Source: Methanosarcinaceae archaeon
GTDB lineage: Archaea; Halobacteriota; Methanosarcinia; Methanosarcinales; Methanosarcinaceae
Direction: 5' to 3'
Assembly (NCBI GenBank): GCA_030611265.1
Contig: JAUWQD010000002.1
Location: forward strand, 62,001 to 126,000
DNA: 64,000 bases
Position numbers and translations under genes: made by a program. A model generated the notes under the pieces. It made no database searches, had not been told where the DNA came from, and saw nothing but the letters and a program-made list of their open reading frames with translations. Each line of letters starts with the position of its first letter. Position 1 is the stretch's first letter. This document shows positions 26,637 through 56,795 of the stretch, piece after piece.

Positions 26637-27201
26637 GCGATTTCTACATTATTCATTTCAGATTGCGCTATAGTCAAGAACCAGTTGATACTCATTATCC
26701 AACAACTTAATTTCCATACATTTTTTGTATATCACGGCAAGGCAATAGAACCATATGGAAAACTTGGTCTGCGTATGATTCATATCTCTGTGTTCCCCGT
26801 GATTTCATTTGTGAGTTATTGAAAAATGCACAATATTGATTTATGTTTGGTTTTTGACTATAATCTTTTAGTGTTGCAATGTGAGTAGTATTTAATAGTT
26901 TCAACACTGCTATATATATTTTCCTACTGCCTTTATTGTATATAAATATTTTGTATAATATTACAACATTACATTTGCCGATATTTAACAGTGTCGACGC
27001 ATTGGTGATAAAATATAAATAGGAAAGTATAGTATTGCCAGCACACACTGTAAAGTAGCCCACACAGTTATTGAAAACATGGGAAATATATATATATGAG
27101 TAATCTCAAACGTGTATATGAGTAAAATGCATACGCATTTTAGTTCCCTCAAGAACATCATATTGATGTTTTGAAGAATTATTAAATTGGAGGTAAGGAA
27201 A
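26637..27201. other. Long regulatory region before the trimethylamine operon
   Basis: No gene in about 560 bases. A TATA element lies at 27010-27024, so the mttB leader would be about 150-165 bases. Inside it are two hairpins: aaaatgcatacgcatttt (27124-27141) and aacatcatattgatgtt (about 27156-27172), just before the ggagg site. Confidence 0.55.
27010..27024 (+). promoter_or_regulatory. Probable promoter (TATA box) of the mtt operon
   Basis: aaaatataaatagga is a good archaeal TATA/BRE-like element. The identical 15-mer precedes the methyltransferase pair at 55243-56611 (55077-55091), which suggests shared control. The transcription start would be near 27045. Confidence 0.6.
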
Positions 27202-28689
27202 ATGGTAAGACAACTATTTCCCGGCAGAATGCCGTTGGATGGCGTTAGTCTGGAGCTATTCTCAGATGATGATCTAAGAGCACTACACTATGCTACCATG
27301 GATGTTTTCATGAATACCGGTATTCAGGTTTCAGACCCTGAAGCAAGAGTAATCTTCAAAGAAGGTGGCTGTGATGTTGATGAAAAAACAATGATCGTAA
27401 AGATTCCTGAATATGTAGTCAACAGAGCACTGATCGATTGTCCATCTAAATTCGTCCTATGGGGACGTGGAAAGAAGAACAAATTGGTTCAGGAGCACAA
27501 GGGTAAGGTACACTGGACCTGTTTCGGCACCGGTGTCAAAATGTGTAACTACAAAGGACCGGGACAGTACGAAACTGTTGATTCAACAGATAAGGATGTT
27601 GCAGACACAGCAAAGATATGTGACTGGGCAGAAAACATCAACTACTATTCACTTGCTGTTTCAGCAAGAGACTGGGCAGGAAAAGGTGCACAGGATGTTC
27701 ACGAAACCATTACACCATTAATGAACACTACAAAGCACTTCCATCACATCGATCCTGTTGGAGAGAATGTTGAATATTACAGGGATATTGCTATAGCATA
27801 CTATGGTGGAGACGAAGAGGAAGCACGCAAAAAGCCGCTTTTCTCAATATTGCTCTGTCCTACAAGTCCGCTGGAACTCAGTGTGAATGCTTGTCAGGTC
27901 ATCATGAAAGGTGCAAGATATGGCATTCCTGTTAATGTCCTGAGTATGGCAATGGCTGGCGGTTCATCACCGGTTACCCTTGCAGGAACTCTTGTGACAC
28001 ACAATGCAGAGGTACTTTCAGGTATTGTACTTGCCCAACTGGTGCAGCCGGGTACAGCAGTATGGTACGGCAGTTCCACTACTACATTCGACCTTAAGAA
28101 AGGCACAGCACCAGTAGGTTCTCCAGAACTTGGAATGATCAGCGCAGCAGTAGCAAAACTTGGTCAGTATTATGGCCTCCCAACATTTGTTGCTGGTTCG
28201 TAGGCTGATGCCAAGATACCTGACGGCCAGGCTGGCCACGAGAAAACCCTAACAACACTTCTCCCAGCCCTCTCCGGTGCAAACACCCTCTACGGTGCAG
28301 GTATGCTTGAGCTAGGTATGACATTCTCACTTGAACAGCTCGTCATTGATAATGACATGATCTCAATGACGAAGAAAGTAATGGAAGGAATTCCTGTAAA
28401 TGAAGAAACTCTTGCAGTCGAATCTATCGATCAAGTAGGTATCGGCAACAATTTCCTTGCTCACAAATCCACAAGAGATAACATAGACCTGCCATCCAGC
28501 CCAATGCTGATTGACAGATTAATGTTTGGTGACTGGAAAGCTGCGGGTTCAAAAGACCTCGCAACGGTTGCTCATGAAAAAGTCGTTGACATCATGAAGA
28601 ACCACGTCGTTGAACCAATCGATGCTGACCTGCTCAAAGATATGAAAGCAGTTGTTGACAGAGCTGACAAAGCGTTCAGAGGCAACTAA
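27202..28689 (+). CDS. mttB: Trimethylamine methyltransferase MttB, pyrrolysine-containing
   Basis: 495 residues with an in-frame TAG at 28201-28203 decoded as pyrrolysine at residue 334, the position known for Methanosarcina MttB. The reading frame and homology continue unbroken after it ([20 protein letters not shown] onward) to TAA. It transfers a methyl group from trimethylamine to the Co(I) corrinoid of MttC, releasing dimethylamine. Start ATG 27202 follows ggagg by 8 bases. Conserved stretches include [37 protein letters not shown] and [20 protein letters not shown]. Treating it as two genes split at the amber codon would be wrong. First gene of mttB-mttC-mttP. Confidence 0.98.
28201..28203 (+). 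other. In-frame UAG read as pyrrolysine (MttB residue 334)
   Basis: The amber codon lies between GTFVAGS-like sequence (TFVAGS) and ADAKIPD; conserved sequence continues on both sides, and pylS/pylBCD and tRNA-Pyl are in the same window. Confidence 0.97.
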
Positions 28690-31203: not shown

Positions 31204-31848
31204 ATGAGCAAAGAAGAAATGTTTAAAGAACTTGCAGATGCCGTCATTTCCTGCAAAAAAGATGCTGTTGATGCAGCAGTCGAAAAAGCAAGAAGTGAAG
31301 GCATTGAACCGGCTGAGATCATTGAAAAAGGTCTTGCAGCCGGTATGAATGAAGTCGGTATTATGTTTGAGAGGGGTAAGCTGTTCTTACCACATGTAAT
31401 GCTTGCAGCCGGTGCGATGGAGTCAGGGGTTACGATTTTGGAAGCTGACATGCCAAAGGACACTGCCAGTAAAAAACTTGGTGTTATCGTAAACGGCACT
31501 GTTGAGGGGGATGTCCATGACATTGGCAAGTCCATTGTTTCTACAATGCTCCAGTCCGCAGGCTTTGAGGTCCATGATATTGGAAGAGATGTTCCTCTTC
31601 AGGATTTCATCGACAAGATCAAAGAGACAAATGCAGACATGGTCGGTCTTTCCGCCCTTATGACAACTACCCTTCCTGGTCAGAAAGCAGTTATTGAGAT
31701 GCTCAAAGAGCAGGGGCTGAGAGATAACATAAAGGTCATGGTTGGCGGTGCACCTGCAACAGAAAACTGGGCAAAGAAGATCGGTGCTGATTGCTATGCA
31801 GAAAATGCAAGTGAAGCTGTGGCAAAAGCCAAAGAATTGCTTGTCTAA
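31204..31848 (+). CDS. mtbC: Dimethylamine corrinoid protein MtbC
   Basis: 214 residues with the cap helices and the B12 motif [11 protein letters not shown], then [11 protein letters not shown] and [16 protein letters not shown]. The sequence matches MtbC rather than MttC or MtmC ([20 protein letters not shown] block). It accepts a methyl group from MtbB and passes it to MtbA. gaggtg lies before the ATG. mtbB follows by 19 bases. Confidence 0.96.
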
Positions 31849-31867
31849 TTTGTGGAAGGTGATACGA

Positions 31868-33271
31868 ATGACAACAGAATACACTACAAGAATGGGAGAC
31901 GGTCAGAGGATATTCATGACAAGGGAGCAGATCCTGGCAGACCTCAAAGAAGGAATGGCAGATGCTACCGATCTTGGTGAGATCCCTGATCTTAGTGAAG
32001 ATGAACTTGACAAACTTGTTGACATTATTGCAATGCCTGCGAGAATGGTTGGTGTAGAACCGGGCAAGGAAGTCCCTGTAACACATGATATTGGCACTAT
32101 CAGGATCGATGGTGACCAGGGTAACAGTGGTGTGGGCATTCCATCCAGCAGACTTGTTGGAGTCATGATGCACGAGAGGGCATTTGGTGCCGATACAATG
32201 GAACTTGGTCATATCGACTACAGTTACAAACCTGTCAAACCTGTGATCTCCAATGAACAACAGACAATGGAAGTCTGTCAGCAGAATACTATCGTTCCGC
32301 TTCTCTATGGTGCAATGCCAAATCTTGGTCTTTATTATACACCGGATGGTCCATTCGAAAACCCTGGTGATCTTATGAAGGCATTCAAGATCGATGAGGC
32401 AAGAGCTTCTATTGAAGGTGCAGCTAAACATGCTACAAGGGATATTACATGGATCATGCAGAAAATGATGGCTTCCGGTGCTGACGGTATCAATTTTGAT
32501 ACGATCGGTGCTGCGGGAGACGGTGACATGTTCGCATCATTGCATGCTATTGAGGCATTAAGGAAAGAGTTCCCTGACATTTACATTGAAGCAGGTATGG
32601 CTGGAGAGTTGACACTCGGTTTGCATGGTGACCTTCAATATGACGGTAAGGTTCTTGCAGGAATGTGGCCACATCAGCAGGCTGAGGTTGTTTCAAAGGC
32701 GGGTGCCAATATATTCGGACCTGTTGTTAATACCAACACTAGCAGAAGTGCAGCATGGAACCTTGGAAGAGCGGTTACTTTCGTCAAAGCGGCTGTTAAG
32801 GCTTCATCCATCCCATGTCATGTGAATATGGGAATGGGTGTCGGCGGAATTCCGATGTTTGAGACTCCAACAATTGACGCCGTGTCAAGGGCCAGCAAAG
32901 CTATGGTCGAAGTTGCCGGCGTCGACGGCATATAGGTAGGGGTCGGCGACCCGATGGGTATGCCGATCGCACACATTATGACCTCCGGAATGAGCGGTAT
33001 CAGAGCAGCAGGAGATCTTGTTGCAAGGATGGAATTCTCAAAGAGCATGAGAATTGGGGAAGCAAAGGAATACGTTGCAAAGAAACTGGATGTTTCTACA
33101 ATTGATCTTAGTGATGAGTACGTCATGAGAGAAATAAGGGAAGATCTCGGTATCGGTGTGATAACTTCAGTTGCAGGTGCTCCAAAAGGAATTGCAGCAA
33201 AGATGAATATCGAGAAACTTCTGGATATCAAGATCAATTCCTGTGAAAGATTCAGAAAACAAATTGCATAG
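31868..33271 (+). CDS. mtbB: Dimethylamine methyltransferase MtbB, pyrrolysine-containing
   Basis: 467 residues with in-frame TAG at 32933-32935, pyrrolysine at residue 356 as in known MtbB. The sequence around it is EVAGVDGI, Pyl, [15 protein letters not shown]. The enzyme methylates Co(I)-MtbC from dimethylamine, giving monomethylamine. A TIM-barrel core with [17 protein letters not shown] and [21 protein letters not shown] is seen. The start is ATG 31868 ([13 protein letters not shown]); the frame is open further upstream through mtbC but that is not coding. The final stop is also UAG (33269-33271), with a backup UGA four codons later. Confidence 0.98.
32933..32935 (+). other. In-frame UAG read as pyrrolysine (MtbB residue 356)
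   Basis: Homology to MtbB continues on both sides of the amber codon without frameshift, and the position agrees with the known Pyl356. Confidence 0.97.
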
Positions 33272-34080: not shown

Positions 34081-35457
34081 ATGACATATAGTAGATCAAT
34101 GGATTGCTACGAATTTTATGACCGTGCAAAGAAAGGTGAGAAGATGACCCAGGATGACTGGGATCTTATGACCATTCCGATGAAGTCAATGGAACTCAAG
34201 CAGAAATACGGAATTGACTTTAAGAACCAGTTTGTCCCAACCGATAAGGATATGATGGGCAACCTGTTCAAAGCAGGTTTTGAAATGCTTCTTGAGTGTG
34301 GCATTTACTGTACCGACACCAAACGTATCGTCAAGTACACCGAGGATGAGATCTGGAATGCAATCAACAATGTTCAGAAGAAGTTTGTACTTGGTACCGG
34401 AAGGGATTCAGTGACCGTTAAAAAGAGAAAAGTTGGTAGCAAGCGCAAGCCGATAGTGCAGGGCGGTCCAACAGGTTCTCCGATCTCTGAAGAGATGTTC
34501 ATGCCGGTGCATATGAGTTATGCTCTTGAGAAGGAAGTTGACACAATTGTCAATGGTGTTATGATGACAGTTCGTGGAAAACCACCAATCCCCAAGAGCC
34601 CTTATGAGATACTGGCAGCCAAGACCGAGACACGTCTTATCAAACAGGCTGCGGCAATGGCAGGAAGACCTGGCATGGGCATATAGGGGCCTGAGACTTC
34701 CCTGTCCGCTCAGGGAAATATCTCTGCTGAATGTGCCGGTGGCATGATCAGTAGTGATAGTCATGAGGTCTCACAACTAAACGAACTTAAGATCGATCTT
34801 GATGCAATTTCTGTTATTGCACACTATAACGGTAACAGTGACATTATCATGGATGAGCAAATGCCTATCTTTGGTGGCTACGCCGGCGGCGTAGAAGAGA
34901 CTGCTATTGTTGATATTGCAACACACATCAATGCATTTGTGATGAGCAATGCAAGCTGGCACCTTGACGGGCCGGTACACATTCGCTGGGGATCTACAAA
35001 CACAAGGGAAACCTTGATGATCGCAGGATGGACCTGTGCTACTATTTCAGAGTTTACTGACATGCTTTCAGGTAACCAGTACTATCCATGTGCAGGACCA
35101 TGCACAGAGATGTGCCTGCTTGAGGCTTCAGCCCAGTCCATGACAGATACGGCATCCGGCCGTGAGATCCTTTCCGGTGTGGCAGCCGCAAAGGGTGTTG
35201 TGCAGGACAAGACAACAGGTATGGAAGCCAGAATGATGGGGGAGGTTGCAAGAGCAACTGCAGGTATGGACATCGGAGAGGTTAACAAGATAATTGATGG
35301 AGTTGTCAAACTCTACGAGAACGATTATGCAAAAGCACCACAGGGGAAGACATTCCAGGAATGTTATGATGTTAAGACCATAACACCAACTGATGAATAC
35401 GTTAGCGTATACGATGGTGCACGCAAGAAACTTGAAGAGTTGGGGCTTGTATTCTAA
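34081..35457 (+). CDS. mtmB: Monomethylamine methyltransferase MtmB, pyrrolysine-containing
   Basis: 458 residues with in-frame TAG at 34684-34686, pyrrolysine at residue 202, exactly the site of the first structurally known Pyl enzyme. The sequence on either side is GRPGMGI, Pyl, GPETSLSAQGNIS. It transfers the methyl group of monomethylamine to Co(I)-MtmC, releasing ammonia. Start ATG 34081 follows gaggtga. The C-terminal part contains GGYAGGVEETAIVDIATHI, WHLDGPVHIRWGSTNTRETLM and CAGPCTEMCLLE. Operon with mtmC; mtbA follows after a 150-base spacer. Confidence 0.98.
34684..34686 (+). other. In-frame UAG read as pyrrolysine (MtmB residue 202)
   Basis: The position equals the established Pyl202 of MtmB and both flanking segments are homologous to MtmB in one frame. 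Confidence 0.98.
34698..34717 (+). promoter_or_regulatory. Hairpin just downstream of the mtmB amber codon (PYLIS-like)
   Basis: ttccctg and cagggaa form a 7-bp stem with a 6-base loop 11 bases after the UAG. A PYLIS element has been described at this place in mtmB; published work found it helpful but not required for pyrrolysine insertion. Confidence 0.65.
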
Positions 35458-35518: not shown

Positions 35519-35610
35519 ATCTTCCTCCACCCTTTGCCAGTGGGTAAATACTGGCAACATTTCATTCATAGAGATATAAAATATAATTGAATTTACAGGA
35601 GATTGAATTT

Positions 35611-36630
35611 ATGGTTGAATATACTCCAAAAGAAAGACTGGCACGCGTATTGAACAAACAAACTGTGGACAGAATGCCGGCTGTATGTGTCACACAAACT
35701 GCAACCGTTGAACAGATGGAAGCTTGTGGTGCATTCTGGCCGGAAGCAAACGAGAATGCGGAAAAGATGGCAATACTTTCTGAAGCAGGCCACACTGAAA
35801 TTGGTTTTGAGGCTGTACGTGTTCCTTATGATATTTCCGCAGAAGCCGAATTATTTGGCTGTGAGATCAAGGCGGGTACACAGGTTCAACAGCCATCTGT
35901 TGTTGGACCCGTTGTGAAGACCGCAGAAGATATTGAAAAATTAAGGGATTATGATCTGAGTGAAGGAAGGGTTGGTGTTGTTTGTGAGGCGATCAAGATA
36001 CTTACGGACAAATATGGAGCTGACCTTCCGATCATGGGTAGTATGCTCGGTCCTTTCTCACTGGCACAGCACCTTAATGGTGATAACTGGTTCATGGCCA
36101 TTATGACAGATGAGGCATTTGGACTGGCACTTATGGAATTCACGACCGAGTTCAATATTGCATATGCAAAGAAAATGGTTGAGAATGGTGCTGACACAAT
36201 GGTCGTTATTGACCCTACGGCAAGTTACCAGCTCATCGGGCCTGAGTTCTATGAGAAGTTCGTACTGCCATTCCACACAAGAATAATTGATGCGATGCAT
36301 GAACTCAATATTCCTACTGTGCTCCACATCTGCGGTGACGCCACCGATGGCCTCACTCTAATGGAAGCCTGTGGAGTGGATGGCATCAGTATTGACCAGA
36401 ATGTTGATGTTGCAACTGCTGTGGCAAAATTGGAGAAATCGATAGTCATAGGAAATCTTGATCCGGCGAACATGCTCTGGAACCAGACACCTGAGGCAAT
36501 TAAAGAGGAGTCACAGAATGTACTGAATGCAGGTGTGGCGTTGTTGGCACCCGGATGTGGTATCGTCAGCAAGACCCCTACCGCGAACCTCCGGGCAATG
36601 GTAGAGATGGCTAAGAACCACACATACTGA
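35611..36630 (+). CDS. mtbA: Methylcobamide:CoM methyltransferase MtbA (methylamine-specific)
   Basis: 339 residues from ATG 35611 (caggaga upstream; an in-frame TTG at 35587 is not preferred). It belongs to the uroporphyrinogen decarboxylase-like TIM-barrel family, with the zinc site formed by LHICGDATD (His-x-Cys) and LAPGCGI (Cys). The N-terminal [22 protein letters not shown] and [14 protein letters not shown] match MtbA rather than the methanol-specific MtaA. It moves the methyl group from methylated MttC, MtbC or MtmC to coenzyme M. Its place right after mtmCB agrees. Confidence 0.94.
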
Positions 36631-37028: not shown

Positions 37029-37126
37029 TCGGCTTCAAAAATAGCTAAACAAATACAAAAGTTAAAAAGAGATTTTATCATTATGTGATGTTTTCACACA
37101 ATGATACATTGAACATTGACTTTTAT

Positions 37127-37198
37127 TGGCGGAAACCAAGGGAAATTAACCCGACTAAACAGATTTAGAGTCCATTCGATCAATATGATCTGATGTCC
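37127..37198 (-). tRNA. Second, diverged tRNA-Pyl copy (CUA anticodon), possibly a pseudogene
   Basis: A 72-base sequence in register with copy A, CCA included. D arm GATC-ATATT-GATC, 6-bp anticodon stem with the CTCTAAA loop and TTTCC-G-CCA end are kept. Three features look damaged: position 4 of the acceptor is C opposite T, and the first two T-stem pairs (TC against TT, in TCGGG/CCCTT) are lost. Its own promoter-like flank is separated from it by the minisatellite. It may be non-functional or a variant needing testing. Confidence 0.75.
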
Positions 37199-37201
37199 CC
37201 A

Positions 37202-37227
37202 CATTCGATCAACGTGATCTGATTTCC
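37202..37227 (-). pseudogene. 5' fragment of a third tRNA-Pyl copy
   Basis: On the minus strand GGAAATCAGATCACGTTGAT followed by CGAATG matches the first 26 bases of copy A with one difference, then homology stops before the anticodon. It lies 3 bases from the 5' end of copy B in the same orientation. Confidence 0.8.
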
Positions 37228-37470
37228 TCATTAATTTCCCTTGGTTTCCCCATTGATTTCCCACTGGTTTCCCAACCGATTTTCCAATCGATTTCCCCAT
37301 TGTTTTTCCCACTGGTTTCCCAATCGATTTTCCAATCGATTTCCCCATTGTTTTTCCCACTGATCTCTCAACCGATTTCCCAATCGATTCCCCATTGTTT
37401 TTCCCACTGGTTTCCCAATCGATTTCCCCATTCATTTTCCCTCTGGTTTTTCAATCGATTCCCCATCGAT
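37228..37470. repeat. Minisatellite of ~12-base units beside the diverged tRNA-Pyl
   Basis: About twenty imperfect units such as cccaatcgattt, cccattgttttt and cccactggttt in tandem. Read on the minus strand the units are ggaaatcgattg and gggaaaccagt, resembling the tRNA-Pyl acceptor sequences ggaaatc and ggaaacc. A minus-strand frame through it gives GKSIGKPVGKTM-type peptide repeats, most likely a by-product of the 12-base period. Confidence 0.85.
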
Positions 37471-37671
37471 TTGCACTTCACGGGCAAAAACAAATAGGCA
37501 TTTATCATACTTATATTTTGTGGTTCAGGTAATATGGATAAAAACTGTATTAACTCTATTGTACCCTGTTTTATAAAAAATTAAATTATACAAACCGTAA
37601 TCTATATATATATTTGATTTGAAAGCAGCGTTTTGTATAAGTGCATGATAAAGTATCGGGGTTTTATCTTT

Positions 37672-37705
37672 GGAGGAATTCGTGCGTTGAGTTGCACCTC
37701 TCGCA
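37672..37705 (+). pseudogene. Decayed tRNA 3' end fragment
   Basis: gaattcgtgcgttgagttgc followed by acctctcgcat resembles the T arm and acceptor strand of the tRNA-Leu 3' half at 20310-20350 (gaagttcgtgcgttcgaatc, gcacctcccgcac). No 5' part is present. Confidence 0.5.
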
Positions 37706-37724
37706 TTATTGCACTTTTATTTGT

Positions 37725-37767
37725 GAAAATGGTGCTGACACAATGGTCATTATTGACCCTACGGCAA
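37725..37767 (+). repeat. 43-bp fragment of mtbA
   Basis: Matches mtbA 36181-36223 with two mismatches (aatggtgctgacacaatggt, then ttattgaccctacggcaa). Flanks are unrelated to mtbA, so it is a copied gene fragment. It lies directly before the 3' flank of tRNA-Pyl copy A. Confidence 0.9.
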
Positions 37768-37855
37768 TTGTCAATAAGGGTAATAAAAAGTTAAAAAGAG
37801 ATTTTATCATTATGTGAAGTTTCCACACAATGATACATTGAACATTAATAAATAT

Positions 37856-37927
37856 TGGCGGAAACCCCGGGAATTCAACTCGGCTGAACGGATTTAGAGT
37901 CCATTCGATCAACATGATCTGATTTCC
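37856..37927 (-). tRNA. pylT: tRNA-Pyl (anticodon CUA)
   Basis: 72 bases including encoded CCA, the size of known tRNA-Pyl. Minus-strand features: acceptor GGAAATC with GGTTTCC (one U-G pair), a single base before the D stem, a minimal D arm GATC-ATGTT-GATC, the long 6-bp anticodon stem AATGGA/TCCGTT with loop CTCTAAA (anticodon CTA), a 3-base variable region (CAG), T arm CCGAG-TTGAATT-CCCGG with one A-C mismatch, and discriminator G. It is charged by PylS and reads UAG in mttB, mtbB and mtmB. It is not next to pylS (54.5 kb) but 1.2 kb downstream of mtbA. Confidence 0.95.
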
Positions 37928-37953
37928 TCGTTGATCTGCACTTTTATGTGCAA

Positions 37954-37966
37954 AAATAAATATGCT
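37954..37966 (-). promoter_or_regulatory. Probable TATA box of tRNA-Pyl copy A
   Basis: On the minus strand gcatatttattt is centred about 32 bases before the mature 5' end, as expected for an archaeal tRNA promoter. The corresponding aaacaaataggc sequence at about 37487-37497 lies on the far side of the minisatellite from copy B. Confidence 0.55.
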
Positions 37967-38107
37967 TTTTTAGTATTTATAATATTTGGGTGATTTGATT
38001 TGGGTTAGAATTGTTATATGGTCTTTTGTATTGGGTTTTATTAAATTGTGAATAATACTAATAGTAACATATATATGTGTGATTTGAAAGGAGTGTTTTT
38101 TCAGCAT

Positions 38108-38215
38108 GCATGGTAGCTTGGTCGGTAGCTTGGCAGGTAACTTGTCCGGTATCTTGTCCGGTTAAAGTAGTCTGACCACCTGTCTGACCACCTGTCTGAC
38201 CACCATCTGTCACTC
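38108..38215 (+). repeat. Two adjacent runs of 12-base tandem repeats
   Basis: First run: units like ggtagcttggtc, ggtagcttggca, ggtaacttgtcc, ggtatcttgtcc (38111-38162). Second run: three units of tgtctgaccacc (about 38176-38212). An 18-codon frame, MHGSLVGSLAG onward, spans the first run but has no clear ribosome site. Confidence 0.85.
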
Positions 38216-38276: not shown

Positions 38277-38372
38277 TCAAGATCCTTCCGGCCCGGTTTC
38301 CGTACAGCCCATTGAAAAAGCAGCAGCCATTACTAACAAAAGTGTCAAGCCTAATGTAAAATATTTATTCAT
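38277..38372 (-). CDS. 31-residue lipoprotein-like peptide (possibly truncated gene)
   Basis: From ATG 38372: basic start MNKY, hydrophobic helix FTLGLTLLLVMAAA, lipobox AFSMGC at about 19-24, then TETGPEGS and a TGA stop. The signal and lipobox are convincing but almost nothing follows, so it is either a very small lipopeptide or the remnant of a larger lipoprotein cut by a stop. It lies 87 bases downstream of the META lipoprotein on the same strand. Confidence 0.5.
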   Translation of the reverse strand: MNKYFTLGLTLLLVMAAAFSMGCTETGPEGS

Positions 38373-38458
38373 GTTAATAATTTTCTCAATATAAATTAAA
38401 TGAATTGTTCCGGTGCTCTTCATTCCTAAATTAAAAAAAAATAGTCGAAACAGGTGTT

Positions 38459-39319
38459 TCACTGCTCGACTGCTTTTCCTTTAACAAAAAGCATTCTGTC
38501 GCCGTCCTCTCCGATGCCGAGAACAAGCTGATCATTGTCCATTGAGACAGTTGTAACATTGCTCAATAGGGAAAGATACTGATTATCCAGCGAGTCAGGA
38601 CCACAGTATGCACGTGTCATTGGTCCTGATGCTAATGTAAGATATTTTCCTTCCAGTGTGTAGTCTCCACTTCCAACGTTGCAGTCTGCTTTAATTAAGT
38701 ATCTCCCATCCGACTTGAAGACAAGTGTGTAGTTTTCCGGATCAGAAACTACTGATTGGCTGGCTGGAAGTGTTTCAGTTAATCCTGACCATTGCCATTC
38801 GATATCAATGATCTCATCAAGATATCCGATATTTTCTTCGACAAAAAGCATTCTGTCACCGTTTTCTCCGATGCCGAGAACAAGCTGATCATTGTCCAGT
38901 GAAACAGTTATTACATTGCCCAACAAGGAAAGATACTGATTATCCAGCGAGTCAGGACCACAGTATGCAAGTGTTATTGGTCCCGGTGCCAATGTAAGAT
39001 CATTTCCTTCCAGTGTGTAGCTTCCACTTCCAAGGTTGCAGTCAGCTTTTATGGAATATGTGCCTTCCTTAGAGAACAGGAGGGTGTATTTTTCCGGATC
39101 AGAAACCACTGATCGGCTGGCAGGTTCATTTTCAATAAGTCCCGACCACTGCCACTTTACGTCAGTTATGTCATCTATGGAAATAGTTTCAGATTCAATT
39201 TCTTCGTTGTTCATATTCTCTGCATCATCTACATCTTCAGTGCAGCCAGATACCAAAAGGGCGGCTGTGACTAAAGTACATATGAAAAGTAAAGTTAGTA
39301 TTTTACGTGTATTTAGCAT
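38459..39319 (-). CDS. Lipoprotein with two META (HslJ-like) domains
   Basis: 286 residues. The signal peptide ends in the lipobox LLVSGC (Cys26), followed by an acidic linker. Two tandem META-type domains (about 48-160 and 170-282) are nearly identical: IKADCNLGSGSYTLEGNDLT against IKADCNVGSGDYTLEGKYLT, and AYCGPDSLDNQYLSLL in both. META domains occur in secreted or lipid-anchored proteins linked to stress and envelope; the role in archaea is not known. The strong similarity points to recent duplication. Confidence 0.85.
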   Translation of the reverse strand: MLNTRKILTLLFICTLVTAALLVSGCTEDVDDAENMNNEEIESETISIDDITDVKWQWSGLIENEPASRSVVSDPEKYTLLFSKEGTYSIKADCNLGSGSYTLEGNDLTLAPGPITLAYCGPDSLDNQYLSLLGNVITVSLDNDQLVLGIGENGDRMLFVEENIGYLDEIIDIEWQWSGLTETLPASQSVVSDPENYTLVFKSDGRYLIKADCNVGSGDYTLEGKYLTLASGPMTRAYCGPDSLDNQYLSLLSNVTTVSMDNDQLVLGIGEDGDRMLFVKGKAVEQ

Positions 39320-40302: not shown

Positions 40303-41751
40303 ATGGAATATCATGATGTAAAGAACCTAAAAGAGAACCACCCCTCTCTAAAGTTGTTAAATGCGGATAATATGCCATTGATAGTAGGTTTTCTTTATAG
40401 CAAGTTCAAGGTAAACAATGTTCCAACGATTTCAAAAGATGAATTGGAATCAAGTCTCTCAAATTATTTGTATTCTATAAGGGATGTAGAAGGAGAAGAA
40501 GTATATCCTAAAACACCTTCCGAGTATCTTGAAGATTGGACTAATGCTAACTACCTGAGAGCATATTATTCTCAAGATGATGAAGCTTTTTTTGATTTGA
40601 CCCACTATACTGAAAAAACGCTTGAATGGATAAGGGGCATTCTAGAACAAAGGGGATTTGTGGCAACCGAATCCCGCCTTCTCAAAATAATAAGCACATT
40701 AAAAGAAATTGCTTATGAGAACACTGAAGATCCTGTCGAAAGATTGGAAGAGTTGAATAAACAAAAGCGTGATATTGAGTTACAGATCGAAAAGATTAAT
40801 GCAGGCGTTATTGAAAGGTTAACTGAAACTCAAATAAAAGAACGTTATTTTGAAATTTGTGAGACAATACACAAAATATTATCTGATTTTAGAGTTATAG
40901 AACACAATTTTCGTCAGCTTGATATGGAAATCAGGGAGAAGCAGATAAAAGAAGGTGTTAGAAAAGATGAGGTATTGCATGATATCTTTTCTACTAAAGA
41001 CCAGCTACACAATACAGATCAAGGTAGGAGTCTCGATGCGTTTTGGGGGCTGCTGCTATCTCAAAAACAACAGGATGAACTGGACAAGCTAATTGAGATG
41101 ACTCTATCTCTTGAAGAAGTACAAAACGTTAAAAAAGACGACGATATCCTTGAAGAAATGAAAATACGTCTCATTAATGCTGGTGAACGAGTCAATCAAA
41201 TTAATTACTCACTCGCTGAGCAACTAAGGAAATTCCTCGATGAGAGGACGTATCTGGAAAACAAGAGAGTAATGGAGATCATCAAAGATATAAAGTCAAC
41301 TGCAGTTGAAATAAAATATGATTATCCATCTAATAATGATTTTCTTACTATTGAAGGTAAACCTTCGATTGAAATGGTAATGGACAGACCTTTATGGAAT
41401 GGTTCATCGACAACAAAATTACGTAAACAGAATATGGAATATGGTTCTTCTGAGGACGTAGATACTTCAGTTCTATATGACCAATTCAACATAGATCCAA
41501 AGGAACTCAAAGGCAAGATCGAAGAATTCTTAAAAACAGATTCACAGGTCTCATTAAATTTGGTCACTGATAAATATCCTATCAGCAGAGGTCTTGTTGA
41601 ACTTTTGACGTACATGGACATTGCATCTAAGAGTAAAAAAGCCATTATAAACGAAGATGTGTCTGAATACATGGACATCTCTAATTTATTTAGTGGAAAG
41701 AAATTTAAGATTCAGATACCTCAAGTTATTTTTTGTAGGGATGAAAGATGA
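40303..41751 (+). CDS. jetA: Wadjet defence protein JetA (DUF3375)
   Basis: 482 residues, mostly helical with long coiled-coil stretches (about 150-210). The N-terminal segment LKENHPSLKLLNADNMPLIVGFLYSKFK and the winged-helix start are typical of DUF3375, the kleisin-like subunit (JetA/MksF type) of Wadjet. With JetB and JetC it forms an SMC-like complex that recognises circular plasmids by loop extrusion. aggaga precedes the ATG. It overlaps jetB by 4 bases (ATGA). Confidence 0.9.
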   Translation: MEYHDVKNLKENHPSLKLLNADNMPLIVGFLYSKFKVNNVPTISKDELESSLSNYLYSIRDVEGEEVYPKTPSEYLEDWTNANYLRAYYSQDDEAFFDLTHYTEKTLEWIRGILEQRGFVATESRLLKIISTLKEIAYENTEDPVERLEELNKQKRDIELQIEKINAGVIERLTETQIKERYFEICETIHKILSDFRVIEHNFRQLDMEIREKQIKEGVRKDEVLHDIFSTKDQLHNTDQGRSLDAFWGLLLSQKQQDELDKLIEMTLSLEEVQNVKKDDDILEEMKIRLINAGERVNQINYSLAEQLRKFLDERTYLENKRVMEIIKDIKSTAVEIKYDYPSNNDFLTIEGKPSIEMVMDRPLWNGSSTTKLRKQNMEYGSSEDVDTSVLYDQFNIDPKELKGKIEEFLKTDSQVSLNLVTDKYPISRGLVELLTYMDIASKSKKAIINEDVSEYMDISNLFSGKKFKIQIPQVIFCRDER

Positions 41752-42329
41752 TAGACGATAATGATATCCTTCCGTATGCCGCAGCAGTGATCAAACTACT
41801 TAAAGGCAATATTTTCAAAAATGATACTGATATATGGAATTATCTTATTCAATACCAACCAGCGATTACTGAATACTTTTCGAGGATTGGGATTGATCTG
41901 TTTGTCAATGAGAACGATGGTTATGCATTTCTTAAACAGAAAGAATTTGATGAGTCCTCTAATATCTCATTACCCCCACTTGTCGAAAAAAGGGCATTGA
42001 GCTATTCAGTTACATTGCTTTGTGTTCTTCTTGTAGAAAAACTGATTGAACATGATGCAAAAGGTGGTGATTCTCCTTATCTGGTTATGGATAGAAAGGA
42101 GATCCACAATTCAATGAAGCTTTTTCGGCCAGACATTTCTAATGAAAAAAAGACTATCAAGGACATTGACGCAAATATAAATACTCTAAAAGGATACGGA
42201 TTTTTAAGGCAATTGAGGAAAGATGAAAATAAATTTGAGGTAAGGAAAATACTTCGTGCAAAGATCTCAGCTGAGACTATTCAGGATATTAAGAAAAAGG
42301 TGATAGAGTATGCAGAACTCGTTGATTGA
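41748..42329 (+). CDS. jetB: Wadjet defence protein JetB (DUF4194)
   Basis: 193 residues, two winged-helix-like halves, of the DUF4194 family (MksE/KITE-type subunit). Landmarks are DIWNYLIQYQPAITEYFSRIG near the start and LLCVLLVEKLIEHDAKGGDSPYLV in the middle. It bridges JetA and the SMC subunit. Its start overlaps the jetA stop and its end overlaps jetC by 20 bases, so the operon is translationally coupled. Confidence 0.9.
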   Translation: MIDDNDILPYAAAVIKLLKGNIFKNDTDIWNYLIQYQPAITEYFSRIGIDLFVNENDGYAFLKQKEFDESSNISLPPLVEKRALSYSVTLLCVLLVEKLIEHDAKGGDSPYLVMDRKEIHNSMKLFRPDISNEKKTIKDIDANINTLKGYGFLRQLRKDENKFEVRKILRAKISAETIQDIKKKVIEYAELVD

Positions 42330-45300
42330 TTTTTCTGATGATGAATTCCAGAAAGGCTTCCGTTTGCATCGGTTGGAAGTCTTTAATTGGGGTACTTTCG
42401 ATAAGAATGTATGGAAGATTGAACCTTCCGGGTACAATTCGTTATTAACCGGAGACATAGGATCTGGGAAATCAACGCTTGTTGATGCTATAACCACGCT
42501 TTTAGTTCCACCAAATAATATTACTTATAATAAGGCAGCTGGTGCTGAAAAAAGGGAACGTTCACTTCGATCATACGTACTTGGTGAACATAAAAGTGAG
42601 AGAGATGAATATAATAATTCAAAACCGGTTTACCTGCGAGATGAAAAGGATTTTTCTGTGATACTAAGCTATTTTCATAACAGTGGATTTGACAAGGGTA
42701 TGACATTGGCTCAGGTGTTTTGGGTAAACAATGGAAAAGTAAACAAATTCTTTGTAACTTCCAAGGAGAATCTGAATATCCACGATCATTTTTCACTTAA
42801 AGATGTTGAAACTGATATTACAACCATGAAAAAACGTATAAGAGCTCTTCACGATACGTTTGTCTTTGATACTTTCAAAGATTATAGTAATTCATTCCGA
42901 CCATTTTTTGGAATTAAGTCTGATAAAGTGCTTGAACTATTCTTCCAGACCGTTTCAATGAAAAACATTGATAAGTTAACGGTTTTTATGAGAACTCATA
43001 TGCTGGAAGATATCGATTTTAAAAGTGATATCCAAGCAATGGTTCAGAACTATGACAATCTTACTAAAGCTTATGAATTTGTTCAGAAAGCTAAAGCTCA
43101 ATTGGATATGCTGAATCCAATGGTGGACAATATCTCAAATTATGAAGATCTATTAAAGGAAATAAATGTATTACAAGATTGTCTGGATTTTTTGCCTTTC
43201 TTTTTTACGGAGATAAAGTATGAGCTTCTTGTTGAGGATATTGGGATATCTAAGGAGAATTTTTCCAGTTTAAATGAGCGGATAGAAGAGAAAATAACAA
43301 TATTGGAGCAGTTAAGAGATAGGGAAAGAAGCATATACATATCAATAAGGGAAAATAAAGAAGGTCAAAGAATCCAAGAGCTGGAAAATGAGATTAAAAG
43401 TCTCGAAGAAACAAAAGAGGTAAAGTTCCAGAAACAACAAAAATATTCAGAGATATGTACTTCTCTTGATATCAGAATTGCAGATGATGAACAAAGCTTT
43501 GCAAATTCTATTAAGGTCGCGGAGAATTTATTAAAGAACGTCAAAGAAGAACTAGAGATACGGATGGATGAAGTGGGTAGGATGTTCTCTTCCAAAGAAA
43601 GACTGGAAAATGAATACAATGACTGCAAATCTGAATTTGAATCATTGAACCAGAGGAAAACAAAAATACCTTCCAGTAGCCTGAAAATCCGTCAGTCTAT
43701 TCTTGAGAATTGTTCTCTTAAAGGGGTAGAACTGCCATTTATAGGTGAACATATAAAGGTCAAATCCACGGAAACAGAATGGGAAGGAGCATTAGAAAGA
43801 CTTCTTCACAACTTTGGATTAAGTCTCCTTGTTCCAGAAGAACACTATAGGACTGTAAGTAGTTATGTCAATCAGACTGACCTTAAGGGACGGCTTGTTT
43901 ATTTTAGAGTACCCAATATCTTAAATTCATCATCGATAAATGAATCTCATGGCAGTTCCGTTGCCAGTAAGCTGGAAATGAAAGCTGATTCTAAATTCCA
44001 TGACTGGATTAACAATGAACTGACCACCAAATTCGATCTTATGTGTTGTGAGACTATTGAGCAGTTTCAGACTGAAAAGAGGTCCATCACTAAAAAAGGA
44101 CAGATAAAGGGAAGTGGGGGACGCCACGAAAAAGATGATCGAAAGAAGCTTTTTGACAAGCGGGAATTTGTACTTGGTTGGGATAACAAAGAGAAGATCG
44201 AGCTTATCAGCAAACAAATGGAACTTTTGCATCAGCAAATACAGGAGTGTGTAAAAGAGAAGAGCCGGTTTAAAAAAAAAGGTGAAGGCTTAGATGAACA
44301 AAAAGAAAATCTGCGTGATCTTTTGAAGATTAAAGATTTTAGTGAAATATTTTGGGAAATATTTGTCACAAAAATACAATTATTAAGACAAGAGATTGAA
44401 GAACTCGAACGGACCTCTGATCAACTAAAAATACTGAACAATCAATTATCTTCAACGAAAGAGCAAATAGCAGAGGAAGAATATGAAAAAACTAATGTTG
44501 AAAAGAACGCGACACTTGTAAATGCCAAGATCGAAAAACACGAAGCGGACTCTAAAAAATGCAAAGAAAAACTAGTTGTTAATCCTTTCAAAGAAAAAGA
44601 AGAAAAACCAGATATTTCTAGTTATTTGAGAACAGATACTTTTTGTATCACATCAATTGATCAGGAACAACAAACTGTACGTGAGAACATTGATCAGAAA
44701 AAAGCAAACAGATCTGATCGAAGTGTAAGATTAAGCCGTAGTATTGTTGGACAAATGACCCAGTATGTGGATAAATATCCTGTTGAGACGACTGATTTAA
44801 TTGCAGTTATTGAATCGATCTCAGAATTTGTCGATATTTTCAGTAAATTAAAAAATGAGAATCTACCCAAATATGAAACGAATTTCAAGAAAGAATTGCG
44901 TGAGCATACAATTCAATCAATTGCTACTTTTAGCTCGAAATTAGATTATGAGGCCACGAGCATTGAGAAGAATATTGCGACGATTAATAAATTCCTGCGT
45001 GATCTTGACTACAATCCAGGTACATTCATTGAACTAAGGTCTGATAAAGCACCTGAAATTAATATCAAACAATTTAAAGCTGAGTTAAAAGATTGTCTTT
45101 CAGAAACCCTTGGTAATGAAGATATCTATAATGAGGAAAGATTCCATAAGGTAAAACGACTATTGGATCAGTTCAAAGGTAAAGATACTGTAGAGCGCAA
45201 TTGGACAAATACGGTTACTGATGTCAGGAATTGGTTAATATTTTCTGCAGCTGAGATATCTTCCGAAGACGGTAGTGAGATAGAGTTCTATAGTGATTCT

Positions 45301-45663
45301 TCTGGAAAATCGGGTGGACAAAAAGAAAAGCTTGCATATACAATTCTGGCATCTGCGCTTGCATACCGATTCGGTCCTGCAGGTGATAAGCCTGTGTCTA
45401 ATTCTTTCCGATTCGTAATAATCGATGAAGCCTTTAGTCGTAGTTCTGATGAAAGTGCTCGATATGGCCTCGATTTATTCAAAAAATTGAACTTACAGCT
45501 TTTAGTAGTAACTCCGTTGCAGAAGATCAATGTAGTTGAAGGCTACATTAACTTTGTTCACTTGTCATCGAATGACAATGGAAGCCATTCAAAGATTAGA
45601 AATGTCACTATTCAAGAATACAAAGAAGAAAAGATGAGCCAACAGGTCGGGGCGATGATATGA
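42310..45663 (+). CDS. jetC: Wadjet SMC-like ATPase JetC
   Basis: 1117 residues with SMC architecture. N-terminal Walker A GDIGSGKST lies at 48-56. Long coiled coils (about 280-400 and 620-770) enclose a hinge-like middle. A C-terminal ABC signature SGKSGGQKEKLAYT (about 997-1010) and Walker B FRFVIIDEAFSR (about 1034-1045) follow. It drives ATP-dependent DNA loop extrusion that allows small circular DNA to be sensed. Start ATG 42310 has aaggtgat upstream inside jetB; it overlaps jetD by 4 bases. Confidence 0.95.
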   Translation: MQNSLIDFSDDEFQKGFRLHRLEVFNWGTFDKNVWKIEPSGYNSLLTGDIGSGKSTLVDAITTLLVPPNNITYNKAAGAEKRERSLRSYVLGEHKSERDEYNNSKPVYLRDEKDFSVILSYFHNSGFDKGMTLAQVFWVNNGKVNKFFVTSKENLNIHDHFSLKDVETDITTMKKRIRALHDTFVFDTFKDYSNSFRPFFGIKSDKVLELFFQTVSMKNIDKLTVFMRTHMLEDIDFKSDIQAMVQNYDNLTKAYEFVQKAKAQLDMLNPMVDNISNYEDLLKEINVLQDCLDFLPFFFTEIKYELLVEDIGISKENFSSLNERIEEKITILEQLRDRERSIYISIRENKEGQRIQELENEIKSLEETKEVKFQKQQKYSEICTSLDIRIADDEQSFANSIKVAENLLKNVKEELEIRMDEVGRMFSSKERLENEYNDCKSEFESLNQRKTKIPSSSLKIRQSILENCSLKGVELPFIGEHIKVKSTETEWEGALERLLHNFGLSLLVPEEHYRTVSSYVNQTDLKGRLVYFRVPNILNSSSINESHGSSVASKLEMKADSKFHDWINNELTTKFDLMCCETIEQFQTEKRSITKKGQIKGSGGRHEKDDRKKLFDKREFVLGWDNKEKIELISKQMELLHQQIQECVKEKSRFKKKGEGLDEQKENLRDLLKIKDFSEIFWEIFVTKIQLLRQEIEELERTSDQLKILNNQLSSTKEQIAEEEYEKTNVEKNATLVNAKIEKHEADSKKCKEKLVVNPFKEKEEKPDISSYLRTDTFCITSIDQEQQTVRENIDQKKANRSDRSVRLSRSIVGQMTQYVDKYPVETTDLIAVIESISEFVDIFSKLKNENLPKYETNFKKELREHTIQSIATFSSKLDYEATSIEKNIATINKFLRDLDYNPGTFIELRSDKAPEINIKQFKAELKDCLSETLGNEDIYNEERFHKVKRLLDQFKGKDTVERNWTNTVTDVRNWLIFSAAEISSEDGSEIEFYSDSSGKSGGQKEKLAYTILASALAYRFGPAGDKPVSNSFRFVIIDEAFSRSSDESARYGLDLFKKLNLQLLVVTPLQKINVVEGYINFVHLSSNDNGSHSKIRNVTIQEYKEEKMSQQVGAMI

Positions 45664-46841
45664 TCCAACCAGAAGAGATCAAAAAGAAGGCTTTGCGCTG
45701 GTATTTAAAAATTTTGAGTTCTTCGGTTCAGGATATCTCTTTTTTCCCTAAAGAAATACAATTCCGAAAAATAAAGGCAAATGAAACGCTTGAGAACTTT
45801 TCACAAATTAATGAAAATATCAGTAAACTGAGAAGTGGATCTAAAGAAGAGATTGGTTACGGTTACTCAATAGAGTTTACCCTTAAGAATGATAGGAAAA
45901 TTGGTAAACAGCTTTTTCCAACTAGAATCTACTTTGAAACCCTTGATGATTATCTCAAGTTCCTACATAAAGAAAAAGAATATCATAGTGTCATGCAGGC
46001 AACACAGCAAATTATCGATCAGATCCCTCAGCTGAAAACATGGATTGTAGCTAATCCCCAAAAAGTACTTGATAATCTTGATAAATGGGATGATCTGATA
46101 AAAGTATGCAACTATTTCATTGAACACCCAAAGCCAAATATCTTTATTCGGGAACTACCTTTAGATATTTCTACAAAGTTTGTAGAGAGGAATAAAAATA
46201 TTCTTAGAAATCTCCTTGATATACTCGTAGAAGAACACATTAACAGTAGTGAGTCCGAGTTCGAAAAACGTTTTAATTTGAAATACAATGAACCCCTTAT
46301 CCGTTTACGGATTCTTGATGATGAGATTGCAGAAAATATGTTTAGTGGGGTTAATGATCTTAGCATCCCTCAAAGCCAATTCGATAATTTAAATATCCCA
46401 TGTGAAAAAGTGTTTATTCTTGAGAACAAGACGACTTATTCCAATATATTCAATTTTCTCACTCTTCCTTCTCTTACAAAATCAATTTCGATATTTGGTC
46501 AGGGTTTTGCTATCAATCAACTAAAAAATGCAAAATGGTTGTCAGACAAACAGATTATTTACTGGGGTGATATTGATGCTCATGGTTTCCAGATTTTGTC
46601 TCAACTAAGAGGATATTTTTCTCAGACAAGATCCTGTATGATGGATCTTCACACTTTCACACAGTTCAGAGATTTGGCTATTACTGGACCGGATACAATT
46701 ATGACAGATCTTGAGAATTTAACTGATGGTGAACGGGAGTTGTTTGAACTTTTGGTAGGTTTGAAAAAGAGTAATCGTTTGGAGCAGGAAAAGATTCCGC
46801 ATGTTTATGCTGTAGGGAGTATATATGAAATTGTAAACTGA
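45660..46841 (+). CDS. jetD: Wadjet Toprim nuclease JetD
   Basis: 393 residues. An N-terminal arm domain (DUF3322 type) is followed by a C-terminal Toprim-like domain (DUF2220) with the acidic motif IYWGDIDAHGFQILSQLRGYF around residues 300-320 and an upstream Glu near KVFILENKTTYSN. JetD cleaves the plasmid once the JetABC complex has extruded it. Last gene of jetABCD, all four overlapping. All key motifs are intact, so the system looks functional. Confidence 0.92.
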   Translation: MIQPEEIKKKALRWYLKILSSSVQDISFFPKEIQFRKIKANETLENFSQINENISKLRSGSKEEIGYGYSIEFTLKNDRKIGKQLFPTRIYFETLDDYLKFLHKEKEYHSVMQATQQIIDQIPQLKTWIVANPQKVLDNLDKWDDLIKVCNYFIEHPKPNIFIRELPLDISTKFVERNKNILRNLLDILVEEHINSSESEFEKRFNLKYNEPLIRLRILDDEIAENMFSGVNDLSIPQSQFDNLNIPCEKVFILENKTTYSNIFNFLTLPSLTKSISIFGQGFAINQLKNAKWLSDKQIIYWGDIDAHGFQILSQLRGYFSQTRSCMMDLHTFTQFRDLAITGPDTIMTDLENLTDGERELFELLVGLKKSNRLEQEKIPHVYAVGSIYEIVN

Positions 46842-48589: not shown

Positions 48590-50209
48590 TCACATCACCC
48601 TCAACAACGAATGATTCATAGTCTGCTCAGGACACACCACAACGCAGCGCCTGCAACTTGTGCCAAGGCAATGCTGGCTGTCAATGTTCACAAACCTATT
48701 TCCGTCTTTTTCGACTATGACCAATGCATCTTCGGGGCATTCCTTTTCGCATTTGTGGCACAATGTGCATTTTACGACCGGAGCTTCGAGGGTGATTCCA
48801 ATGTCTGCTACAACATCAAGACCAAGATAACCCACGTCATCGATATCCCTGACAACTCTTTTTTCAATGTTCACATCTTTCAGGGTTCCGGGATAAACCG
48901 GAATATTGTACATCTCAAGCATCTGGGCATACATCTCGGTTGGCATTCCATTTTGCCATGATGCGAGCTCGCACATGTAAATATTCTTGAATGTTTCACT
49001 CGAAGCCATCATCAGATGATCTGCTTTGATCTTTTGTGCGATCGTGATAACTTCATCAAGTTTTGACCTGTCGAGCGCGATCTTCCTTGCGAGCCCAAGG
49101 GATGTATTCCCAAACTGGATAATGTTTTCGCAAAAATCAGGAACCGAACCGATGCGTCTTGCCTTATTCGCATCAACATAAGTGCCGGTTGCCCCGGACA
49201 TATATGAATACTTCAGATCCTCATATTTCAAACCGGAATCAACAATAAGCGTCATATGTGCTGCCCTGATAGCACCGATCGCTTTCCCCGCTTCTTCAAC
49301 ATCCTTACTGCTGATCGTAATCCCCGGACCCAGAATCAGTTTACCGTTGGGCAGTTCAGGGAGTTTTACGATCAATCCTTCCTTAAGGGCAAGTGCGATC
49401 GTTGAAATAACCCCCGTACCCGTAATCCCCTTAGGTACCACATCCGATCCCTCGATCTCATTCCCCATCACAGGATCTACAAGAGGACCTTTTGCAGGAT
49501 TCATATTGCCGTCAATAACAGTAAGTCTCCAATATCCGTCCTCAACATTTACATCACTGATAGCCCCCGGACCAGCAAGCATACCGCAGCTTATACCCTG
49601 CCCCTCAATAGCCGGACCTGCCGCCGCACTTGCCGTAATTATCTTATCCCCGATCTTAAGCGCCATTTCAGCGTTGGTCCCATAATCCGTAACAAGACAA
49701 GGTTCTTTTTGAGCCATAAAATCAGTCTCAAGCATCATTGCAAGAGCATCAGCCCCGATCTCATGTTTGATAGCCGGAGGAACGACGATCTCGCAATTAT
49801 CCATCTCGAAAATACCTTTGAATATCTCATTTGCCGGAAATATCCTTGCATCCCGATTCACATCTTCCACACCCAGAGAAGCCTGCTTGCTCTTCCCGGC
49901 ATATGCAAGATCCCTTATCTCAATATTCTGGAACAGGGAAAGCTGGATTGGATTCCCGCAAACCGCAATACGTGCAATCTCATTGGGATCAACATCGAAT
50001 TTTTGCAGGATCTCCCTGACAGTCTCAATGATAATTCCATGCGCCACATCGGCTCCTGTGTTAATGGCAAAGTCAAGATGGTCCATCACATTTCCACCGG
50101 GCAGGGGATGTCCCATTGTTACCACGGTTTTAATAGTATCTTTCTTTTCAAGGTCGATCAATTGTGATCTAAAACCACTTGTTCCAAGGTCAAGGGATAT
50201 TACATACAT
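48590..50209 (-). CDS. ramA: Methylamine methyltransferase corrinoid protein reductive activase RamA
   Basis: 539 residues from ATG 50209, the same length as characterised RamA; a longer frame from 50230 lacks a ribosome site, while ggaga lies just before 50209. An N-terminal ASKHA-type ATPase part (ISLDLGTSGFRSQLIDL, VTDYGTNAEMAL) is followed by two C-terminal iron-sulfur motifs, CTLCHKCEKECP and CLGTSCRRCVVVCP. It uses ATP and low-potential electrons to reduce inactive Co(II) corrinoid proteins (MttC, MtbC, MtmC) to Co(I). It follows pylD by 24 bases and so belongs to the pyl operon. Confidence 0.95.
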   Translation of the reverse strand: MYVISLDLGTSGFRSQLIDLEKKDTIKTVVTMGHPLPGGNVMDHLDFAINTGADVAHGIIIETVREILQKFDVDPNEIARIAVCGNPIQLSLFQNIEIRDLAYAGKSKQASLGVEDVNRDARIFPANEIFKGIFEMDNCEIVVPPAIKHEIGADALAMMLETDFMAQKEPCLVTDYGTNAEMALKIGDKIITASAAAGPAIEGQGISCGMLAGPGAISDVNVEDGYWRLTVIDGNMNPAKGPLVDPVMGNEIEGSDVVPKGITGTGVISTIALALKEGLIVKLPELPNGKLILGPGITISSKDVEEAGKAIGAIRAAHMTLIVDSGLKYEDLKYSYMSGATGTYVDANKARRIGSVPDFCENIIQFGNTSLGLARKIALDRSKLDEVITIAQKIKADHLMMASSETFKNIYMCELASWQNGMPTEMYAQMLEMYNIPVYPGTLKDVNIEKRVVRDIDDVGYLGLDVVADIGITLEAPVVKCTLCHKCEKECPEDALVIVEKDGNRFVNIDSQHCLGTSCRRCVVVCPEQTMNHSLLRVM

Positions 50210-50233
50210 ATTAGGTCTCCATATTTTCATTTA

Positions 50234-51013: not shown

Positions 51014-51015
51014 TC

Positions 51016-53156: not shown

Positions 53157-53178
53157 ATCATTTAACAAAGAAATCACC

Positions 53179-55242
<2,064 letters not shown>

Positions 55243-56654: not shown

Positions 56655-56795
56655 ACCGTTTTTAATAGTATATGTTTTATAAACATATAGTGCAAGTTAA
56701 TCCGAGCATAGCGAGGATTTTCTTGTCAATGATTTTTATTCTACTTGTACGACAAGAAAATCCTCGCTACCTCTCAGATCAACTCGAACTATAAA
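56655..56795. repeat. Inverted pair of AT-rich dispersed repeats
   Basis: agcgaggattttcttgt (about 56710-56727) and acaagaaaatcctcgct (about 56752-56769) face each other, flanked by tatagtgcaagttaatccga and atcaactcgaactata. It lies between convergent genes and could fold as one hairpin, so it may also end transcription in both directions. Confidence 0.75.

Follow-up and report, generated by a model that had tools for sequence, protein, structure and literature searches.

Why does a genome with a single pylS carry two full-length copies of pylT, the gene for tRNA-Pyl, together with a piece of a third, and does it make use of more than one? The sequences in question are encoded on the minus strand, downstream of mtbA, in a 64,000-nucleotide stretch of a Methanosarcinaceae archaeon (the whole stretch is hereafter called the window). 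We consider it highly probable that copy A is the only working pylT, and that copy B is a local duplicate which has since decayed, accompanied by a repeat array, a tRNA fragment (C) and broken base pairs.

Architecture of the pylT locus

Neither pylT copy was called by ARAGORN and Rfam gave no tRNA match at the locus; a dedicated covariance model (R1) was therefore made, for which relatives supplied nine distinct pylT sequences and from which A and B were left out. Since this relatives-only model, applied as the first-pass annotation had proposed, detects both copies (A 96.5 bits, E 7e-29; B 76.8 bits, E 2e-22; single-copy relatives 98.6-102.2 bits), chance resemblance to tRNA-Pyl is excluded. 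Both 72-nt copies and the fragment of 26 nt had been placed correctly to the base at the outset, and the locus as a whole is composed of the following features (G029 is a genome of the same genus, and HMMV denotes isolate HMMV ANME3_119):

37856-37927, minus strand: pylT copy A, tRNA-Pyl (CUA), intact (model R1, 96.5 bits; 21/22 pairs)
37127-37198, minus strand: pylT copy B, full-length duplicate, probable pseudogene (76.8 bits; three broken pairs)
37202-37227, minus strand: fragment C, tRNA nucleotides 1-26, 26 nt (25/26 identical to A)
37233-37477, no strand assigned: 12-nt minisatellite, about 18-20 units (Tandem Repeats Finder; direct-repeat family D1)
37231-37249, no strand assigned: end of the array, a 19-nt perfect inverted repeat of 37131-37149 (repeat I1)
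37485-37645, minus strand: duplicated 5' flank (promoter region) of B (72% to the pylT flank of G029, 68% to that of HMMV)
37936-38110, minus strand: 5' flank (promoter region) of A (conserved in G029 and HMMV)
37806-37835, minus strand: hairpin then T-run after A, probable pylT terminator (folds in relatives too)
37077-37106, minus strand: hairpin then T-run after B, the same as that of A (from folding)
37724-37767, no strand assigned: 44-nt copy derived from mtbA, between A and B (95% to internal mtbA 36180-36223; repeat family D6)

In the order of transcription, the promoter region of A (38110-37936) is succeeded by A, its hairpin and T-run, the mtbA 44-mer, the second promoter region (37645-37485), the minisatellite (37477-37233), fragment C, copy B and the second hairpin and T-run, with mtbA converging from the opposite side. 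The repeat shared by A and B spans 142 nt at 88% identity and consists of the tRNA and about 70 nt of 3' flank, so that the early claim of a duplicated 3' flank stands, over a shorter extent than the roughly 85 bases then given. The duplication of the AT-rich 5' flank was also borne out (37604-37650 against 38069-38115, 77%), and this repeat continues toward the tRNA in interrupted form; the minisatellite, the mtbA 44-mer, the 19-nt inverted repeat, the conserved hairpin and the nature of C as a tandem duplication had been overlooked. As the same hairpin forms in G029, HMMV and two Methanolobus genomes as well as in A and B, and is followed by a T-run, it is probably the pylT terminator; the 3' flank, which carries it, was for this reason dropped as a neutral yardstick. 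A BLAST search of the genome with pylT matched A, B and C and produced one chance match (E 2.2), and the further intact pylT that had been feared elsewhere was not found in the assembly (2.86 Mb, 108 contigs, 98.3% complete).

Copy A as the probable working gene

The window holds the genes that a tRNA-Pyl would serve, together with those for its amino acid and its charging:

27187-28689, plus strand: mttB, one in-frame TAG (reading frame)
31742-33271, plus strand: mtbB, one in-frame TAG and a terminal TAG (reading frame)
34081-35457, plus strand: mtmB, one in-frame TAG (PYLIS_1 match 34684-34783)
35587-36630, plus strand: mtbA, methylcobamide:CoM methyltransferase, convergent with pylT (NF041608, 639.5 bits, above cut-off)
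48590-50230, minus strand: ramA-like reductive activase of corrinoid methyltransferases (RACo_C_ter and 4Fe-4S domains)
50234-53228, minus strand: pylD (50234-51013), pylC (51016-52113) and pylB (52110-53228) (intact orthologues in G029)
53179-54510, minus strand: pylS, full-length, the sole copy in the genome (15.3 kb from copy A)

The terminal TAG of mtbB (33269-33271) is the same codon as the internal Pyl one; a second in-frame stop lies a few codons on, and read-through at the terminus would add only a few residues.

Copy A keeps nearly all of its pairs, as had been noted from the outset: 21 of 22 form, the exception being the A-C pair of the T stem (A48-C58, model 48:58, equivalent to A52-C62). 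The same mismatch is present in the sole pylT of G029, and only in these two sequences, which marks it as a tolerated feature of the lineage and not as decay specific to this genome. Between A and G029 the tRNA differs at 2/72 positions and the flanks at 45/244 (p=5e-4), which argues that the tRNA of A is under selection; its 5' flank is 16-20% different from those of relatives, as against 33-35% for that of B. The cloverleaf (6-bp anticodon stem, 1 nt between acceptor and D stems, 5-nt D loop, 3-nt variable arm, CUA) is of the Methanosarcinaceae type and, as read from the sequence, contains G73, G1:C72, G51:C63, U33 and A37, published as the PylRS identity elements of tRNA-Pyl (PMC7609411). 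Since three methyltransferase genes with UAG and intact pylS, pylB, pylC and pylD require a working pylT, for which A is the sole good candidate, A is very probably functional; with its cognate pylS and three UAG genes at hand, it would be charged by PylS and decode UAG.

Probable decay of copy B

The three broken pairs attributed to B in the first-pass annotation, one in the acceptor stem (4:65) and two in the T stem (45:61 and 46:60), are indeed broken, whereas a single pair is broken in A (in common with G029) and none in HMMV; these three are never broken in relatives, and a T stem of 3 bp is left. Substitutions specific to one copy number 7 in B and 2 in A within the tRNA, and 32 and 6, respectively, within the 5' flank; four of the five stem changes of B break pairs, and B sits on a long branch, so that in comparison to its paralogue A it displays the accelerated, structure-breaking substitution by which pseudogenes are recognised. 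Folded alone, B reaches a minimum free energy of -15.1 kcal/mol (A: -21.1 kcal/mol), and its centroid structure loses the anticodon stem. Its promoter region is now about 260 nt further from the tRNA, its 5' flank is 33% different from that of A, and the transcript of array plus B folds into a strong hairpin (z -6.2) in which the end of the array captures the 3' arm of B.

From these sequence features we regard B as most likely a pseudogene, and of the two options first offered, pseudogene or variant Pyl tRNA, the former is favoured; yet B retains every published PylRS identity element (G73, G1:C72, G51:C63, U33 and A37), as well as the CUA anticodon, the 3-nt variable arm, the encoded CCA and the terminator hairpin. 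As the tRNAs of A and B are less diverged (10/72) than their flanks (66/245, p=0.03), B could have been functional for a time after the duplication.

It is unlikely, in our judgement, that B still acts as a functional second tRNA-Pyl, perhaps poorly expressed, which would provide an extra suppressor tRNA during methylamine use. The full set of M. barkeri-type identity elements, a score far above background (76.8 bits), the retained terminator hairpin and a promoter-like flank that can still be recognised are what such a gene would have, but they are outweighed by the three pairs broken in no relative, the shortened T stem, the loss of folding energy and of the centroid anticodon stem, the relaxed pattern of substitution, and a promoter region displaced behind an array that is able to pair with the 3' arm of the tRNA.

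We give very little credence to the duplication being an artefact, in which strain variants or repeats were joined during assembly. The genome is a 108-contig MAG with 3.6% contamination, and tandem arrays are difficult to assemble; the two copies, however, are 14% different, have distinct flanks and lie inside one 146-kb contig, and the sequence of B occurs in no relative, so that it is not the single copy of a known strain. The early concern about strain variants is thus poorly matched by the locus. Still less probable is the proposal that array and B together form not a tRNA but an element for regulation or termination, placed between the converging mtbA and pylT units: the strength of the fold (z -6.2) and the conserved terminator-like hairpin would suit it, but G029 has the same convergent gene pair and lacks both array and B, strong folding is inherent to minisatellites, and array and B offer no conservation.

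Fragment C and the repeats

The start of C precedes that of B by 29 nt, and GAGGAAATC stands before C, as it does before A. From this spacing and shared context, C is best read as the 5' end with which the duplicate started out, and as the first half of a 29-bp tandem duplication of the 5' third of B. That C and B instead make up one interrupted tRNA-Pyl gene, with a 101-nt precursor from which a 29-nt insert is removed so that the acceptor strand of C is used, is the least credible of the alternatives: the 5' strand of C does remove the acceptor mismatch of B and the 101-nt RNA closes a full acceptor stem (-30.6 kcal/mol, z -2.05), but the insert has the exact length of a tandem duplication such as slippage yields, the minimum-energy fold has symmetrical internal loops where a split or intron-containing archaeal tRNA would have a 3-4-3 bulge-helix-bulge, and the spliced product would retain two broken T-stem pairs.

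The 12-nt minisatellite occupies a single site in the genome and is absent from the G029 and HMMV loci, and the mtbA-derived 44-mer is 95% identical to mtbA of G029. The end of the array (37231-37249) is a perfect 19-nt inverted repeat of the 3' T-arm and acceptor strand of B (37131-37149); shuffles of B gave at most 14 nt (2000 trials), A gives 7 and G029 10. As the repeat includes the TT that breaks both T-stem pairs of B, a single templated event (a hairpin-mediated template switch) could account for the match. A derivation of the 12-nt units from the 5' edge of the tRNA is suggested by position, in that the best alignment lies at the expected place (ATCAACGAGGAAATCA), but not by score, since 234 of 500 shuffles align as well.

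Tandem arrays of 12 nt are present also at 38112-38204 and 58350-58385 (GGTAGCTTGGCC, GTCTGACCACCT, AGTAACAGAATC), which suggests a genome prone to 12-bp slippage. In HMMV (L038, 2080-2130) a short repeat (ATCGATGTTCAATT) stands in tandem just downstream of pylT, and the flanks of pylT in this genus seem prone to tandem repeats. The window further contains a lipoprotein-like META-domain gene with an internal 300-nt duplication (38459-39319; 84%), followed by the remnant of a truncated lipoprotein start (38280-38380), and, at about 56657-56728, a dispersed repeat of about 70 nt, which other genomes of the genus match dozens of times at 85-100%. A DUF3375 protein, a 193-aa ORF, an SbcC-like ATPase and a JetD-like protein, encoded in a row (40303-46841), look like a Wadjet (JetABCD) plasmid-defence operon within the methylamine region.

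Taken together, the order of events that we infer would begin with a local duplication that copied pylT, its promoter region and its terminator, with the mtbA scrap now lying between the copies. Free to decay, B would then have seen the 12-nt minisatellite grow between its promoter region and its tRNA, and its first third tandemly duplicated (29 bp) to give fragment C, while substitutions cost it one pair of the acceptor stem and two of the T stem; the 19-nt inverted repeat suggests that a hairpin templated one or more of these changes (quasi-palindrome template switch). Copy A alone would remain to read UAG in mtmB, mtbB and mttB, using the PylS encoded 15 kb away. The four-taxon topology of A, B, G029 and HMMV gave no order of splits, and the duplication may therefore predate the A-G029 split, with loss in G029; its dating against the split of the window genome (G000) from G029 was dropped on the same ground.

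Separation of pylT from pylS in the family

Among the 61 family genomes sampled, pylT was found in 53, of which 52 have a single full-length copy, the window genome being the only one with more. In G029, whose mtb region is 89.8% identical to that of the window over 5.7 kb, mtbA is followed by one pylT, without array or mtbA scrap. Three relatives gave 19-nt pylT-like matches that a pattern scan of those loci did not recover and that were taken as chance.

Published accounts give pylTSBCD as uninterrupted in Methanosarcinaceae, Methanohalobium excepted (PMC3941956, PMC9499178). In the window genome pylT is not immediately upstream of pylS: the first-pass annotation had reported some 730 bases without a tRNA there, and the 732 bases concerned (54511-55242) hold no pylT or detectable remnant. 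This detachment is real, and what falls is its standing as a local peculiarity, since it is the gene order of a clade. From the coordinates, pylT and pylS are adjacent in 42 of the sampled genomes and apart in 11. To the latter belong all three genomes of this genus that carry pylT, two of which have the genes on separate contigs and no pylT beside pylS, together with seven of Methanolobus (g4) and one of g12; detachment thus characterises 11/11 pylT-bearing genomes of these groups and 0/42 of the others. The comparison with Methanolobus that had been suggested earlier shows pylT detached in all seven genomes sampled, and in 5/7 it lies less than 2 kb from a convergent mtbA, which indicates that this neighbourhood predates the genus. 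The detachment, common to the clade, would accordingly be older than the duplication. The 11 genomes are further exceptions to an uninterrupted pylTSBCD; our literature search found no paper treating pylT and Methanolobus together.

A likely ANME-3 setting

The pylT contig of G038, a genome of the same genus, is identical letter for letter to DQIP01000118.1, of isolate HMMV ANME3_119, and Ca. Methanovorans sp. HMMV is the ANME-3 reference (PMC9012536). The McrA of the window genome is 98.9% identical to that of G017, 94.2% to that of HMMV and 85% to that of G029, and groups with G017 and HMMV; the genome also encodes a protein of 3161 residues with 32 CXXCH motifs, which resembles the giant cytochromes described for ANME. 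A chimeric or mis-binned contig is unlikely, as core genes beside the pyl cluster are closest to same-genus relatives (88-96% identical to G017, whose McrA is the nearest) and tetranucleotide usage is broadly consistent.

ANME genomes, those of ANME-3 included, are reported to be without methylamine methyltransferases (PMC9012536, PMC8470020), which renders a complete methylamine/Pyl set in this genus unexpected. Across the genus, where all genomes compared are MAGs and the placement of contigs is presumed, the set is intact in the window genome (25-36 kb and 48-55 kb) and G029 (C126, C160 and C254), the only two with MtmB and MTTB; it is a relic in HMMV, and neither pylT, pylS nor mtbA was detected in G003 and G017. 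In the HMMV relic (G038 C11, L065, 735-6256), pylS has a TAA at codon 202 and a 1.8-kb insertion that carries a DDE transposase, pylB has a TAA at codon 56, pylD is truncated after residue 71, and pylC is whole; all pairs form in the pylT of HMMV (L038, 2004-2075), and no mtbA match or methyltransferases were found. Identity between the window and G029 amounts to 89% (DNA) in the pyl region (48.4-55.2 kb against C254) and 89-90% in the pyl/mtb regions overall, as compared to mostly 81-82% in neighbouring core genes (56.8-64 kb against C174). Because the pyl/mtb regions are more alike than core genes and McrA, transfer within the genus has to be considered beside vertical descent, and a horizontal exchange of the Pyl/methylamine island is possible.

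On balance we incline to the view that a genome of the ANME-3 genus (Ca. Methanovorans) keeps a complete UAG-decoding methylamine pathway, and that the genus presents a graded series from intact through relic to nothing detected. If so, the decaying second pylT would be a step in a code expansion gained and lost during a shift in methane metabolism. The gene set in these two genomes and the wreck of the same operon in HMMV bear on whether ANME-3 arose from methylamine-using methanogens and on how an expanded genetic code is lost. This setting is of more consequence than the duplicated pylT.

Comparison with known systems

The duplicated pylT is real and mostly a case of ordinary gene decay, with B as a probable tRNA-Pyl pseudogene between duplication and erasure, for which G029 shows the 'before' state. 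Copy A resembles the pylT of Methanosarcinaceae (Methanosarcina, Methanolobus) in its 72 nt, CUA, 6-bp anticodon stem, 5-nt D loop, 3-nt variable arm and encoded CCA, is mostly 92-97% identical to them, and differs by the A52-C62 mismatch that it shares with G029 alone. Prokaryotic tRNA fragments left by integrating elements (PMC9897764) likewise place a partial copy beside a whole tRNA; C, in contrast, arose by tandem duplication of 29 bp amid repeats, and the pylT locus showed neither an integrase nor an att-like arrangement. Ca. Methanohalarchaeum thermophilum HMET1, with its dual PylRS/tRNA-Pyl (PMC9499178), also has two pylT in one genome, but there two distinct pylS go with discriminators G73 and A73, whereas the window genome has one pylS and G73 in both copies, so that a functional dual Pyl system was rejected; for annotation it follows that two pylT matches need not equal two Pyl tRNAs. 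A precedent is found in Methanomassiliicoccus luminyensis, whose third, isolated pylT is a likely pseudogene (PMC3941956): it too is an extra copy at a distance from pylS that has lost proper folding. It lies near a third pylC in a genome with two full pyl clusters, whereas B, with its minisatellite, is the tandem neighbour of the only working copy.
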